NCBI GenBank assembly: GCA_016840315.1
Contig: JAEOSO010000006.1
Location: forward strand, 1 to 34,117
Reading direction: 5' to 3'
Source: Candidatus Borrarchaeota archaeon
GTDB taxonomy: Archaea; Asgardarchaeota; Sifarchaeia; Borrarchaeales; Borrarchaeaceae
DNA: 34,117 nucleotides
A program made the position numbers and the translations under genes. The notes beneath the pieces are model-generated. The model saw only the letters and a list, made by a program, of their open reading frames with translations, did not search any database and had not been told where the DNA came from. Position 1 is the stretch's first letter; every line of letters starts with the position of its first letter. Below are positions 3,439 through 34,117 of this stretch, in pieces.

Positions 3439-5454
3439 GTGATTAGAACGTCAGAAGAAAAATCTTCTTTAGAAGAAGAAATTCGCATTGGAGTTTTCGT
3501 TTGTGAGTGAGGCTTCCAAATCGCTGCTTATGTCGATGTTCCAACATTGACCGAATATGCTTCAACTTTGCCGAATGTTGCCACTTCAGTAAACAATCTG
3601 TCTCTATGTACAACCGCTGGTGCAGATCTCATAAAAGATAAAATAGTTGTCTATAATTTAAACCGAATTGTTGTTGCTTCCTGTACCCCTAAGACCCATG
3701 AACCTGTTTTCAGAGCCGTGCTCAAGGAACTCGGGATGAGTCCCAGTTATCTTGAATTTGTGAATGTCAGAGAACACGTGGCTTCCGTTCACATGGAAGA
3801 ACCAGAGGATGCTTTAGAAAAAGCAAAAGCGTTACTGCGGGCAGGCGTAGCTCGCGCTGCCACACTTGAGGACGTTCCTCGAAAGGTAGTCGCTGTAAAG
3901 CCGACAGCTCTAGTAATCGGCGGTGGCATCGGAGGATTATCCGCAGCGTTGAACCTAGGTGATGAGGGATTCCAAGTCTATCTGGTTGAAAAAGCGCCCA
4001 GCGTTGGTGGACACATGGCGGGTTTGGATAGAACTTATCCTACAGATGATTGTAGCATCTGAATTCTCGGTCCGGTAATGCTTGAAGTTGACAGACATCC
4101 AAACGTTGAAGTGATGAGTTATTCGGAAGTAAAAAGTGTTTCTGGTGTGATCGGAGACTTCACCGTAATGGTTGAACATAAGCCTAGATATATTGACGAT
4201 GTAAAGTGCAATGGCTGTGGAAACTGCTCAACTGTATGTCCTGTTTACGCTCCTAACGAGTTTGACTGCAATATTGGACCAAGAAAAGCGATCTATAAAC
4301 CATTTGCTCAGGCTGTTCCTAACATCGTTACAATCGATATGGATCACTGCATAAAATGTCGCCTTTGTGTTAAAGCTTGCGAATTAGAAGCAATCAACTT
4401 TGATCAACGACCTAAAGTCACAGAATTGCATATAGGAACAATAATCGTTGCCACTGGATTTGAAGAATATAAGCCGTACGGTATCTATGGCTACGGAGAA
4501 TATGAAAACGTTATAACGCAGAATGAATTCGAGCGCTTATTAGCACCGAATGGACCTACCTTAGGACATTTACGTAGGATTTCCGATGACAAAGCACCGA
4601 AACACATTGCAGTGCTACAATGCGTCGGATCTCGGGATCGAACAAAGAATTTACACTGTTCGGGATACTGTTGCATGGTTGGCATCAAGAACGCGAAATT
4701 GGCAAAGCTGCATGATCCTGATACTGAAATAACAGTTTGTTACATGGATATAAGAGCCGCTGGAAAAGACTTAGAGGAGTACTATACAAGGTCTAGAAAG
4801 CATAAAATCAAGTATTTACGAGGCAACGTTTCAGAGGTAGCAGAAGATCCAGAAACAAAGAATCTAATTCTAACAGTTGAAGACACTTTATCGAATCAGA
4901 TTAAGACGATCGAGGCAGATTTAGTAATTCTTTCTGCAGCTATGGTACCTGGAGAGGGTACGGTGGACATCGCCAATCTCTTGAAACTTGAGAGAAGTCC
5001 AGACGGCTTTATCAAGGAATTCCATAGCCGATTATCACCGATTGACACAAAAGTTCCAGGAATTTACCTGGCAGGCGCCTGTCAAGGCCCAAAATCGGTC
5101 GCCGAAACAGTAGCCTCAGCAAAAGGAGCTGCAGCAGCCGCATCGGGCCCGCTGATTACGCGCAAATACGAGATGGAGTTAATCAAAGCGATTGTAGACG
5201 ATGAACGATGCTCAAGTTGTACGCTTTGTGTCCTTTCATGTCCGTATGATGCTATAACTATGGATGAATCTGGTATCGCGAAAGTAAACGAAGTTGGATG
5301 TAGAGGCTGTGGCACCTGCAGTAGCGTTTGCCTGTCTAGTGCTATCACACTTAGATACTACAGAGATGGGCAATTAGAAGCATATATTGATGCATTATTG
5401 GCACAGGACGTTGTAACAGAAAAAGTCGCTGCGGAGGAAGAAGCAGGAGGTTAG
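3439..5454 (+). CDS. hdrA: Heterodisulfide reductase subunit A, two selenocysteines
   Basis: HdrA is the FAD- and iron-sulfur-containing bifurcating subunit of the Hdr complex. The reading frame is continuous from GTG 3439 to TAG 5452-5454 (671 residues, normal length) if UGA 3508-3510 and UGA 4060-4062 are read as selenocysteine. The first replaces the second Cys of the N-terminal FVCxC-G motif (FVCEUGF, residue 24); the second replaces the second Cys of the CSxC motif (DDCSIUILGP, residue 208). The remainder is intact: FAD loop VIGGGIGG near 159, ferredoxin clusters from Cys257 and Cys304, the CVGSRD...CSGYCC region, and a C-terminal ferredoxin pair from Cys591 and Cys621. GTG 3439 (or 3436) is the only sensible start near the GGAGG, although spacing is tight. 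mvhD follows after 4 bases. A double nonsense pseudogene is unlikely because both UGAs sit exactly on conserved Cys positions. Confidence 0.93.
3508..3510 (+). other. UGA read as selenocysteine, HdrA residue 24
   Basis: In-frame TGA at the position of the second cysteine in the HdrA N-terminal motif (V-C-E-U-G). Family members have V-C-x-C-G here. The frame continues in perfect register afterwards. Confidence 0.85.
4060..4062 (+). other. UGA read as selenocysteine, HdrA residue 208
   Basis: In-frame TGA at the second cysteine of the D-C-S-x-C-I-L motif beside the FAD domain (CSIUILGP). Methanococcal HdrA is known to have selenocysteine in this motif. Confidence 0.9.
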
Positions 5455-5458
5455 AACA

Positions 5459-5911
5459 ATGGTTCAGGAACAAAAAGTTGAGGCAAAAGAATTCGTACCT
5501 CAGATAGTAGCCTTCGTTTGCTGGAAATGAGGATATGGAGCCGCAGATATAGCAGGAGTCGCAAGAATACAATACCCTGCAACAGTTAAACCGATACGGA
5601 TTCCTTGTGCTGGACGAGTATCTCCTGATCTTATTATCAGGGCATTACGGAAAGGCGCAGACGCTGTATTAGTTGTCGGATGATATCCTGGAGAGTGTGA
5701 CTACGAAATCGGCAATATCGTTGCAGAAAAGCAGATTAACTATCTGAAAAACTTGGCTAAATTAATTGGTTTAGACGAACGTCGCATTCAAATGAGATGG
5801 TGTTCCGCTGCTGAAGGGGAACGATTTGCAAAGATGGCGATAGAAGTGACAAACGAAATCCAAAAATTAGGACCTAATCCACTAAAAAACCGACCTGCTG
5901 CGAAAGAATGA
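5459..5911 (+). CDS. mvhD: MvhD/VhuD-type [2Fe-2S] electron-transfer subunit, two selenocysteines
   Basis: MvhD (VhuD) links a hydrogenase or formate dehydrogenase to HdrA through a [2Fe-2S] cluster. The ATG at 5459 follows GCAGGAGG; reading UGA 5528-5530 (residue 24) and 5681-5683 (residue 75) as selenocysteine gives a normal 150-residue protein. The family motif F-x-C-x-W-C-x-Y-x-GAD appears as FVCWKUGYGAAD, and the motif A-G-C-H-P-G-D-C appears as VGUYPGEC. The middle PCAGRV motif and the closing SAAEGERFA motif are intact. I take TGA 5909-5911 as the real stop because it falls at the usual family length; reading through would add a tail unlike the family. The gene is 4 bases after hdrA, so the two are surely co-transcribed and probably translationally coupled. 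No hydrogenase large or small subunit is visible here. Confidence 0.93.
5528..5530 (+). other. UGA read as selenocysteine, MvhD residue 24
   Basis: In-frame TGA in F-V-C-W-K-U-G-Y, at the second cysteine of the conserved N-terminal Cys pair of MvhD. Confidence 0.9.
5681..5683 (+). other. UGA read as selenocysteine, MvhD residue 75
   Basis: In-frame TGA in V-V-G-U-Y-P-G-E-C, at the first cysteine of the conserved C-x-P-G-D/E-C motif of MvhD. Confidence 0.9.
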
Positions 5912-5913
5912 TA

Positions 5914-5961
5914 CTCATGGAGAAACTTAAGCCATGAGTTAACGCCCCTGCGAGGGGAGCG
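5914..5961 (+). promoter_or_regulatory. Two hairpins after mvhD, candidate SECIS location
   Basis: Archaeal selenocysteine insertion elements usually lie in the 3' untranslated region. Directly after the mvhD stop there is a perfect 7-base stem (CTCATGG 5914-5920, CCATGAG 5932-5938, loop AGAAACTTAAG), then a compact 5-base stem (CCCCT 5945-5949, AGGGG 5953-5957, loop GCG) extended by CG pairs around an unpaired AG. Neither clearly shows the canonical GAA/A internal loop under a short G-C stem, so the assignment rests mostly on position. Confidence 0.3.
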
Positions 5962-5999
5962 GCAGATCTATCAATTCTTTCAGGAGAGTTTACATCCAA

Positions 6000-7199
6000 A
6001 TGGAAATCGGAGAATTCTTCGCTGTAAGACCAAAAGAAGGTCTTGAAGAGCTTATGTCCCTTGATATTCGTTTTGGGAATGGTGCAATTCAGGCGATAAT
6101 GAGTTTTATGTTAAAAAATCAAATAGTAGACACCTTTTTATCATTTCAGGAACGAAAGGATCACTTTACTTTAAAACCCGTTCTTGTAGAAGAACCGAAA
6201 GAAATTTTTGATATTTCTCTTTCTCAATTTATTGCTTACAACTTACCTAACATTGATTCTGTTTCTAAGTATGTTGCCTCTAAACTCAATGGGGCAAAAG
6301 ACAAAAAAATAGGGGTTATTGCGCGGCCATGCGATATTAGAGCTTTCATAGAACTGGCAAAACGCGAACAAGTTTCAATTGATAATCTCTTTGTGATTGG
6401 ACTCGAATGTATAGGTCGAATAGACGCTAAGCTCCTTAAAAAAGTGCTTAAAAAAGCTGAAATCGACCTTGAAAGTGTAGTTAATGAGAAAATAAATGAT
6501 GGAAATCTTATATTAGAATTTAATGATGGAACGACACAAAGTTTCAAATTAGGCGAAGAAATTGATATCAGAAGTTACTGTAATCAATGCCCTGAGAAGG
6601 TTCCAAAAGAAAATGTTGCTGATTTAACATTCTGGATTGATCATCCTCTAGAAGGAAATGAAGAGATTTTTGAAATTCGTTCTGCTGAGGGTCAAGAAGT
6701 ATTAGAAAAAGCAGCAACTGAAGTAATAGAAGCAGAAATTCTTTCTGATGAGGATGTACAGCAACTCACAGATTATATTACCTCCTTAGAACAAACTGCG
6801 CTTGAATTACAAGAGGCAGAATTCCAAAAGCTGGATGAAATGACGGATGAAGAGCGCTTTGATTACATTATTTCTAACTTTGAAGAATGCACTTCGTGCA
6901 TGATGTGTATCCGTGCATGCCCTATATGTTACTGCAAAGACTGTAACGTTATACGAAGAAGAAAGGAATTAGATCCTATTATGATTAATCTAACTCGGCT
7001 ATCACATATTGGTGATACATGTGTCGCGTGTGGAAAATGTTCGGAAGTGTGTCCCAAGTCAATCCCACTCTGCATTATATCAAAGAAATTAGTAGAAGAT
7101 TCAAAAGAACTCTGGCCTGGCCACAAGCCTGGTCACAATATAGAGGAAATTCCTCCAAGATCTTGGAAGGGAATGAAAGCAGCAAGTAGTGCTGAATGA
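6000..7199 (+). CDS. F420-reducing hydrogenase / formate dehydrogenase beta-subunit-like iron-sulfur flavoprotein
   Basis: A 399-residue protein of the FrhB/FdhB family. Members bind FAD and [4Fe-4S] clusters and pass electrons between F420 or a formate dehydrogenase and other carriers. The N-terminal domain has the family motif GVIARPCDIRAF near 101-112, then NLFVIGLECIG and a SYCNQCPEK site. The C-terminal ferredoxin region has CTSCMMCIRACPICYCKDC from Cys297, the CPICYC signature typical of FdhB-like proteins, and a second CVACGKCSEVCPKS motif. The start ATG follows CAGGAG with acceptable spacing. Its place between mvhD and the HdrBC-like gene suggests it is the electron-input module of the Hdr complex. 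The true donor (F420, formate or NADH) cannot be read from sequence, and no FdhA is visible. Confidence 0.8.
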   Translation: MEIGEFFAVRPKEGLEELMSLDIRFGNGAIQAIMSFMLKNQIVDTFLSFQERKDHFTLKPVLVEEPKEIFDISLSQFIAYNLPNIDSVSKYVASKLNGAKDKKIGVIARPCDIRAFIELAKREQVSIDNLFVIGLECIGRIDAKLLKKVLKKAEIDLESVVNEKINDGNLILEFNDGTTQSFKLGEEIDIRSYCNQCPEKVPKENVADLTFWIDHPLEGNEEIFEIRSAEGQEVLEKAATEVIEAEILSDEDVQQLTDYITSLEQTALELQEAEFQKLDEMTDEERFDYIISNFEECTSCMMCIRACPICYCKDCNVIRRRKELDPIMINLTRLSHIGDTCVACGKCSEVCPKSIPLCIISKKLVEDSKELWPGHKPGHNIEEIPPRSWKGMKAASSAE

Positions 7200-19471: not shown

Positions 19472-19482
19472 GGGGTCAATTA

Positions 19483-19744
19483 CCCCACCCTAAAGGGACG
19501 GGGCTTGTTTCGTGAGGAGCAAGAGTAATTAGTTGATTAGCCTAAGAGAGGTCAGGTATATGACGATATCTACGTTATCAGCAGAGTTAAAGAACACACC
19601 AAGGGATGCTTCTCTAGTCCCTTGCTCTGTAAATGGTGGTTTAAACAGAGAGGAAACTCTCAGTGATCATCATAGAGTACTGACTGATAACTTTGGCGAA
19701 GAGAACCTACCTACTTTAAAGCGATTTAAAGGAGGCGATAGGAC
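19483..19744 (+). ncRNA. Omega-RNA (HEARO-type) guide scaffold of IscB
   Basis: IscB nucleases use an RNA encoded directly upstream of the gene. This gene-free stretch of about 260 bases starts with a palindrome (CCCC-A-CCCT, then AGGG-AC-GGGG and GCTTG) like the 5' end of HEARO RNAs. It continues through an AATGGTGGTTTAAACAGAG segment and ends with AAGGAGGCGATAGG just before the TTG of iscB, which resembles the end of known omega-RNAs and also serves as ribosome site. The guide would be encoded just upstream of the left palindrome, at the 3' end of cdhD. The assignment is by position and motif memory; no folding was run. Confidence 0.7.
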
Positions 19745-20950
19745 TTGAGAGTACCTATCTATGTGTTAAACATGAGAGAGCAACCTCTCATGCCTACCAC
19801 GCAACGCACAGGAAAGAAGTTATTACACGAAGGAAAGGCAAAAGTTGTTCAGAGATGTCCTTTTACCATTCAGTTGAACTATGCCACTGGAGAAACTAAG
19901 CAACCGATTAAACTCGGAGTGGATATAGGATATACGAACATTGGATTTAGTGCCAAGACTGATAAGTTAGAGGTCATCAGCGGGACGCTGGCCTTACGCA
20001 AGGACGTCTCTAAAAAGATAGAAGAAAGATGGATGTATCGTAGAACTCGTAGAGGCAGATTAGGGTATCGACCTCCTAGATTTAATAACCGAACTTGCCC
20101 TGAAGGATGGTTAGCCCCTAGTACTCAGCACAGGTTAGATTCTCATATTCGATTAGTCAACAATAAACTTAAAACGCTACTACCGATAACCTACAAAAAG
20201 GTAGAAGTAGCCAATTTCGACGCTCAAAAAATACAGAACCCAGAAATTAAAGGAGTAGAATATCAGCGAGGCACACTTCAGGGCTACGAAGTGAGAGAGT
20301 ATCTGTTAGACAAGTGGGGACGTAAATGTGCCTATTGTGGTAAAACAAACGTCCCTTTAGAAGTAGAGCATATTATACCTAAAAGTAGAGGTGGAACGAA
20401 CAGAGTGTCTAATTTGACATTAGCATGTAAAAAATGTAATTTAAAGAAAGGAGAAAAGACAGCAGAAGAGTTTGGTTATCCTACCATCCAGCAACAGGCA
20501 AAGAAATCACTTAGAGCACCTACCTGTATAAATAGCATTCGTTGGAGGATAGTGGAGCAATTAGCAGCAGAGCATACTTACGGATACGTCACCAAATACG
20601 AGCGTAACAAATTAGGGTTGGAAAAGTCGCATATCAACGATGCGTTTGTCATTGCTGGAGGAACGAATCAAGAACGATGCCGAGCGTATGAAGTTATTCA
20701 AGTGAGGCGTAATAATCGTTCTTTGCAGAAGAATAGAAAAGGGTTTAAGCCGTCTGTTAGGAGACAGCGATACGAATTACAACCTTATGACCTTGTAAAA
20801 TATAACAATAGAACGTATAGAGTAAAGGGAGTTCATTGTCTTGGAAAACGGGTTATTTTAAAAAATGTTAATGGAAAAGACAAAAGTGTAGCTATCAAAA
20901 AAGTGGAGTTGATTAAATATGGAAAAGGGTTATTATTCAACTTATGTTAG
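19745..20950 (+). CDS. iscB: IscB RNA-guided nuclease (HNH + RuvC)
   Basis: A 401-residue protein of the Cas9-ancestor family. In order: the PLMP motif (residues 14-17); RuvC-I with LGVDIGYTNIGFSA (Asp60); the Arg-rich bridge helix RRTRRGRLGYRPPRF; RuvC-II around KKVEVANFDAQ; an HNH domain CAYCGKTN...EVEHIIPKSRGG...CKKCNLKKG (His209, with four zinc-type cysteines); RuvC-III HINDAFVIAG; and a basic C-terminal domain. All catalytic motifs are intact, so it is probably active. The TTG start is set by AAGGAGG 9 bases before it and by the normal IscB N-terminus (MRVP). No transposase gene is present. The surrounding cdh operon is on the same strand, so iscB can be read from the cdhC promoter. Confidence 0.94.
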   Translation: MRVPIYVLNMREQPLMPTTQRTGKKLLHEGKAKVVQRCPFTIQLNYATGETKQPIKLGVDIGYTNIGFSAKTDKLEVISGTLALRKDVSKKIEERWMYRRTRRGRLGYRPPRFNNRTCPEGWLAPSTQHRLDSHIRLVNNKLKTLLPITYKKVEVANFDAQKIQNPEIKGVEYQRGTLQGYEVREYLLDKWGRKCAYCGKTNVPLEVEHIIPKSRGGTNRVSNLTLACKKCNLKKGEKTAEEFGYPTIQQQAKKSLRAPTCINSIRWRIVEQLAAEHTYGYVTKYERNKLGLEKSHINDAFVIAGGTNQERCRAYEVIQVRRNNRSLQKNRKGFKPSVRRQRYELQPYDLVKYNNRTYRVKGVHCLGKRVILKNVNGKDKSVAIKKVELIKYGKGLLFNLC

Positions 20951-33834: not shown

Positions 33835-34117
33835 CTAACATAAGTTGAATAATAACCCTTTTCCATATTTTACCAACTCCACGTTTTTAATGGCGACACT
33901 TGGATTTTTTCCTTTAGGATTTTCCAACACAACCCGTTTTCCGTAGCAATGGACGCCTTTTACTCTATATGTTCTATTATTATACTTGACCAGGTCATAA
34001 GGTTGCAACTGGTATTTCTGTCTCCTAATAGATGGTTTGAATCCTTTTCTGTTCTTCTGTAGCGAACGATTATTGCGTCTCACTTGAATCACCTCATAAG
34101 GTCTGCAGCGTTCTTGG
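33835..34117 (-). CDS. iscB: IscB, C-terminal part of a second copy (runs off right edge)
   Basis: The last 93 codons of another iscB, from QERCRPYEVIQVRR to the same GKGLLFNLC end as the first copy. I count 13 differences in 93 residues (about 86% identity), so this is a diverged relative and not a fresh duplicate. The catalytic domains lie outside the window, so its integrity cannot be judged. It reads toward the minus-strand membrane-protein gene, whose promoter begins about 40 bases past its right end. Confidence 0.88.
   Translation of the reverse strand, partial: QERCRPYEVIQVRRNNRSLQKNRKGFKPSIRRQKYQLQPYDLVKYNNRTYRVKGVHCYGKRVVLENPKGKNPSVAIKNVELVKYGKGLLFNLC

Follow-up and report, generated by a model that had tools for sequence, protein, structure and literature searches.

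An hdrA–mvhD selenocysteine gene pair in a Borrarchaeum-type Asgard archaeon with a SECIS element whose core UGA is also the mvhD stop codon

Organization of the hdrA–mvhD locus

The analysed stretch of DNA (the window, 34,117 nt) carries the adjacent genes hdrA and mvhD, which are separated by a gap of 4 nt and together contain four in-frame UGA codons, followed by a SECIS element that begins within mvhD and extends past its stop codon (Table 1). The short gap and the gene order suggest that hdrA and mvhD are cotranscribed. Downstream of mvhD lies a gene for an FrhB-like F420 subunit, followed by Hdr subunit genes, and neither MvhA nor MvhG is seen among the ORFs of the window. The name MvhD presumes a hydrogenase partner, where the downstream genes appear to provide FrhB-like and Hdr subunits instead. 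The FrhB-like gene (6000-7199, +) ends in UGA followed by in-frame UAA UAA, at a place where relatives end directly in UAA.

A fusion of HdrA and MvhD through UAG 5452 read as pyrrolysine was considered and rejected, as mvhD lies in another frame. Both in the window and in every other member of the genus, hdrA stops at UAG, notwithstanding the pyrrolysyl-tRNA synthetase genes present in two congeners (G001:C7:142596-143312 and G003:C65:7896-8612). Genuine fusions occur elsewhere: at loci L018 (genome G038) and L040 (G056), hdrA and frhD form one open frame, placing every Sec codon and the SECIS-core stop within a single gene.

Table 1. Features of the hdrA–mvhD locus, in window coordinates
Feature	Position	Strand	Description or basis
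hdrA selenoprotein gene	3439..5454	+	GTG start, UAG stop 5452-5454, two in-frame UGA (predicted Sec)
hdrA first Sec UGA, VCEU motif	3508..3510	+	Cys in aligned 5odc_A and 9sfi_A
hdrA second Sec UGA, DDCSIU motif	4060..4062	+	Cys in 5odc_A, non-standard X in 9sfi_A
mvhD/frhD/vhuD (FlpD family) selenoprotein gene	5459..5911	+	150 aa, two predicted Sec codons, UGA stop
U24 of mvhD, CWKU motif	UGA 5528..5530	+	Frame reading, phylum conservation, solved homologues
U75 of mvhD, VGUYPGEC motif	UGA 5681..5683	+	Frame reading, phylum conservation, solved homologues
mvhD terminator UGA	5909..5911	+	Same UGA as in the SECIS core (AUGA 5908-5911)
Eukaryotic-like SECIS, three-way junction, 71 nt	5895..5965	+	Held-out covariance model, MFE fold
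SECIS lower stem	5895-5901/5959-5965	+	Start inside mvhD CDS
SECIS core	AUGA 5908-5911 opposite AA 5941-5942	+	
SECIS upper stem	5913-5920/5932-5939	+	8 bp plus one U-U mismatch
SECIS apical loop AGAAACUUAAG	5921-5931	+	11 nt, A-rich
SECIS extra 3' hairpin CCCCU-GCG-AGGGG	5945..5957	+	

Selenocysteine codons of MvhD and HdrA

With UGA read as Sec, the mvhD frame encodes a product that matches the FlpD profile PF02662, the family of MvhD, FrhD and VhuD, across its entire length (positions 1-123 of 123, E 1.3e-44 in a profile search). As judged from the frame, a complete FlpD-family MvhD requires read-through at both UGA 5528 and UGA 5681. Alignment places U24 and U75 on Cys positions of the solved homologues 7bkb and 9sw2, and the Cys/Sec sites CxxC, C and CxxxxC are all present, with C21, U24, C50, U75 and C80 aligning to those homologues. 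Moreover, in PDB chain 9sfi_K precisely these two sites are occupied by the non-standard residue X. The upstream HdrA matches PDB HdrA chains over its full length (9sfi_A, E 1e-218).

All four members of the genus retain both mvhD UGAs, and frhD genes with two internal TGAs occur at more than 100 loci among 227 genomes of the Asgard phylum. Within the mvhD frame, differences at codon positions 1, 2 and 3 number 11, 9 and 53, as counted between the window genome and the congener G003, with the L016 comparison, misaligned by one codon, left out. Together, conservation in the genus, recurrence across the phylum and the third-position bias exclude sequencing error or chance as the source of the mvhD UGAs. 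A different frhD paralogue, with one Sec codon, is present in G003 (L201) and G001 (L202); its terminal UGA falls at a SECIS-like match of the covariance model described below, at about 29-30 bits.

The original prediction, made from the DNA of this locus, had proposed two Sec codons in MvhD and, counted together with HdrA, four recoded UGAs. Both proposals are borne out by the FlpD match running through the two mvhD UGAs and by the alignment of all four codons to Cys or X sites. Its placement of the mvhD terminator at 5909 likewise stands on the frame reading and on the C-terminal sequence NRPAAKE directly before the stop, which the closest relatives share. These relatives end at the same residue rather than in a longer C-terminus, and nothing points to translation stopping at 5528. 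An extension of MvhD beyond 5909 was dismissed, since the in-frame sequence that follows shows no conservation: it spans 44, 44 and 10 aa in three species and continues into the next gene in the fourth. The two Sec residues, assigned by that prediction to the [2Fe-2S] region of MvhD, may be ligands of such a cluster. The selenium-tuned redox chemistry also suggested for HdrA–MvhD is possible, and electrons would most likely pass the HdrA–MvhD junction of an electron-bifurcating Hdr complex.

A three-way-junction SECIS across the mvhD stop codon

The SECIS was identified with a covariance model trained on 32 relatives from which the window's genus had been excluded. This model scores the element at 36.2 bits (E 8.5e-6), while the next best match in the window reaches 10.8 bits; a second clear SECIS was not found in the window with this model, and a separate SECIS for hdrA is therefore not evident. 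Fold prediction gives a minimum free energy of -26.7 kcal/mol (z -3.5), with three helices meeting at the core, and the same three-helix fold is obtained for five of six other SECIS sequences tested. In the upper stem, two-sided compensatory changes are observed at 8/8 pairs among sites that had been selected by a pairing search. An Rfam scan returned no SECIS match, the Rfam families not covering this form. Two technical points bear on the comparison: a second sequence type, with an AUGUGU lower stem, is misaligned in an alignment of 53 SECIS that was not used for the model, and a simple pattern with AAA spacing misses some relatives, for example L018.

The element conforms to the Asgard eSECIS-like type I model, which is given in PMC11227280 as a GA_[G/A]A core, an upper stem of 7-15 bp and an apical loop of 8-20 nt; the corresponding features here are AUGA with AA, 8 bp and 11 nt. 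Additionally, a 3' hairpin emerges from the junction. A hairpin of at least 4 bp is found at this place in all 51 non-redundant Asgard frhD SECIS, and in 30 of these 51 it lies above the 95th percentile of the element's own shuffles. The hairpin sequences differ (CCCCU/AGGGG, ACCAU/AUGGU, CCUAU/AUAGG, AUGG/CCAU), and the loop almost always contains GC or GU.

Stop-codon usage across Asgard relatives

The mvhD stop UGA is the SECIS-core UGA in all four genus members. Across the phylum, UGA terminates 22 of 114 distinct Sec-frhD genes, a sample composed of the best matches to the window MvhD rather than a random draw. In 17 of these 22 the stop is the core UGA itself (16 assigned by script and L018 by eye), and these 17 genes span five genera and three families. 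The remaining UGA stops lie 4 nt before the core (two genes) or about 24 nt before it (two genes), and for one gene no SECIS was located. The stop of most relatives is UAG or UAA and stands at a different offset relative to the core (5, 13, 16, 22). At L092, L095, L108 and L118 the core precedes a UAA stop by 4 nt, so that the stop codon lies inside the upper stem.

Separate upstream hdrA genes end in UAA (57) or UAG (52) and never in UGA (0/109). Three rows scored as UGA derive from hdrA-frhD fusions, where the scan had ended at an frhD Sec codon, and are not separate hdrA genes. Background stop usage, drawn from twenty 20-kb stretches of Sec-frhD-bearing genomes of the phylum, includes UGA in 37/276 long ORFs. 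Relative to this background, the lack of UGA at hdrA ends gives a Fisher p of 3e-6, a nominal value since the species are related. These counts are in line with UGA being open to recoding at the end of hdrA, roughly 450 nt from the SECIS, but not within the SECIS.

The hdrA ends are strongly enriched in UAG (52/109, compared with 39/276 in the background), to a degree that exceeds what the absence of UGA alone would produce. A small ferredoxin-like gene (2328-2621, +), 3.3 kb upstream and ahead of hdrA, has a UGA stop in the window, where its counterparts in G001 and G003 have UAA. Its UGA stop may reflect a limited reach of the SECIS or of the transcript, or else other context matters.

Proposed decoding of UGA and alternative explanations

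The reading that best accounts for the locus, at a probability of about 0.88, is that hdrA and mvhD form a two-gene Sec unit with one SECIS, the core UGA of which doubles as the mvhD stop. Weighing against it are the UGA stop of the ferredoxin-like gene upstream and the gaps in the Sec machinery of the draft genome (PSTK, SelD and tRNA-Sec, see below). From its place at the mvhD terminus, the single eukaryotic-like SECIS would recode two UGAs in each gene by recruiting the Sec machinery to ribosomes at four distant codons, about 230 to 2,400 nt away. Because the SECIS starts within mvhD and the UGA that its core requires lies in the mvhD reading frame, this UGA would also act as the stop. A ribosome arriving at 5909 would presumably occupy and unwind the SECIS, at a distance shorter than that over which the element can act, and release factor would prevail. 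The original prediction had noted that the ribosome must distinguish the stop at 5909 from the recoded UGAs; the likely basis for this distinction is that the stop UGA belongs to the SECIS core.

Three other explanations were weighed. That hdrA and mvhD are pseudogenes, or that frameshifts or sequencing errors mimic UGA, might be suspected where two genes in a draft metagenome assembly contain four in-frame stops, but identical UGAs recur in independent assemblies of four species, and this conservation refutes it; with the third-position bias, a matching SECIS and over 100 homologous cases, the chance of such an artefact is negligible. Equally improbable is a general reassignment of UGA in the genome, for example to Trp or Cys. 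In-frame UGAs do exist, but several other genes of the window end in UGA, a stop usage that refutes reassignment; moreover, the in-frame UGAs fall at Cys/Sec sites, and Cys-containing paralogues of the same family in the genome lack internal UGA.

More serious, though still a minority view in our estimate, is that the overlap of stop and core merely economizes space and plays no part in discrimination, termination being set by other context. A UGA is needed in the core, which sits no more than about 25 nt from the end of the gene and sometimes falls in frame. The overlap is dispensable for function, given that the majority of relatives have a UAG or UAA stop elsewhere relative to the core. On the other side, UGA is missing at hdrA ends and, at frhD ends, occurs mainly inside the core or within 4 nt of it, as it should if the way UGA is read depends on where it lies relative to the SECIS.

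A broader form of the positional reading has about an even chance of being right: the Asgard hdrA-frhD SECIS would be a three-way-junction variant of the eukaryotic-like SECIS, with an additional 3' hairpin whose loop contains GC, acting as a self-limiting switch, with UGA purged at the hdrA terminator. If so, UGA would have been removed from the hdrA terminator, where the SECIS would recode it, while remaining usable as a stop inside the SECIS. In the gene pair described here, UGA would stand for Sec four times and for stop once, with one recoding element in sight, and the locus is thus suited to testing how distance from a SECIS decides the reading of UGA. The extra hairpin would be a candidate protein-binding site in lineages without SBP2.

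Relation to known systems

Asgard selenoprotein hdrA-frhD (hdrA-vhuD) pairs were reportedly described by Mariotti in 2016. The present locus shares with such pairs the same neighbours, the short gap and Sec in both genes, and differs in coming from another Borrarchaeum-type genome. Sec-containing HdrA and MvhD have been documented in Sifarchaeia (Sun 2021, PMC9723677), and Huang 2024 (PMC11227280) describes hdrA and frhD as always neighbours in Asgard archaea with a SECIS common to both. According to the same paper, which cites Mariotti 2016, stop UGAs of Lokiarchaeia often overlap AUGA. The comparison with lokiarchaeal VhuD recommended by the original prediction is a relevant one. One eukaryotic-like SECIS after frhD, the AUGA_AA core variant and the stop-UGA/AUGA overlap are likewise common to the published pairs. 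The locus is therefore a clear new example of a published pattern. In the available main texts on Asgard pairs, neither the lack of UGA stops in hdrA nor the extra 3' hairpin was found, and the word "hairpin" is absent from the main text of PMC11227280; both features represent modest additions relative to that material.

Other archaeal systems show partial likeness. VhuD of Methanococcales (hdrAU-vhuDGAUB operon) belongs to the same family as MvhD and lies beside a Sec-containing HdrA, whereas the methanogen SECIS has a GAA_A core, unlike the AUGA/AA core found here; in M. maripaludis, a SECIS of lokiarchaeal origin was not functional (PMC11881835). More than one Sec in archaeal FrhD/VhuD is noted in a review (PMC13188914). 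In the Hdr complex of PDB entries 9sfi and 9t1s, the delta subunit has X at both MvhD Sec sites, and of the two hdrA Sec sites the first is Cys and the second X in HdrA; the X residues probably represent Sec. Eukaryotic SECIS elements resemble the present one in their AUGA core, upper stem of 8-9 bp and A-rich apical loop about 11 nt from the core, but the present element differs in lying partly within the CDS and in its extra 3' hairpin. Archaea have no known SBP2 (PMC11881835, PMC9723677).

Host lineage and selenocysteine machinery

Among named organisms, the locus is most closely related to those of Candidatus Borrarchaeum yapensis, Ca. B. weybense and Ca. Sifarchaeum marinoarchaea, and the genome belongs to the Asgard genus Borrarchaeum/Sifarchaeum of the class Sifarchaeia. 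SepSecS is present in the window genome (TIGR03531, E 1.7e-149). Three congeners carry a Sec-containing SelD above cut-off, as well as a PSTK-like gene at E about 1e-55, below cut-off. In the window's own draft genome, which is 77% complete, PSTK gave no match and SelD-like matches fall below cut-off. No Rfam match for tRNA-Sec above cut-off was obtained in the genus, which fits the unusual tRNA-Sec reported for the Sifarchaeia MAG lw60_2018_gm2_56 (PMC9723677); locus L157 of the present analysis comes from this same isolate.

Farther along the window, an IscB-type gene with RRXRR and HNH domains (19475-20950, +) is preceded by a HEARO/omega RNA (RF02033, 138.8 bits), and a second IscB-like sequence, a C-terminal fragment, occupies the end of the window (33835-34116, -).
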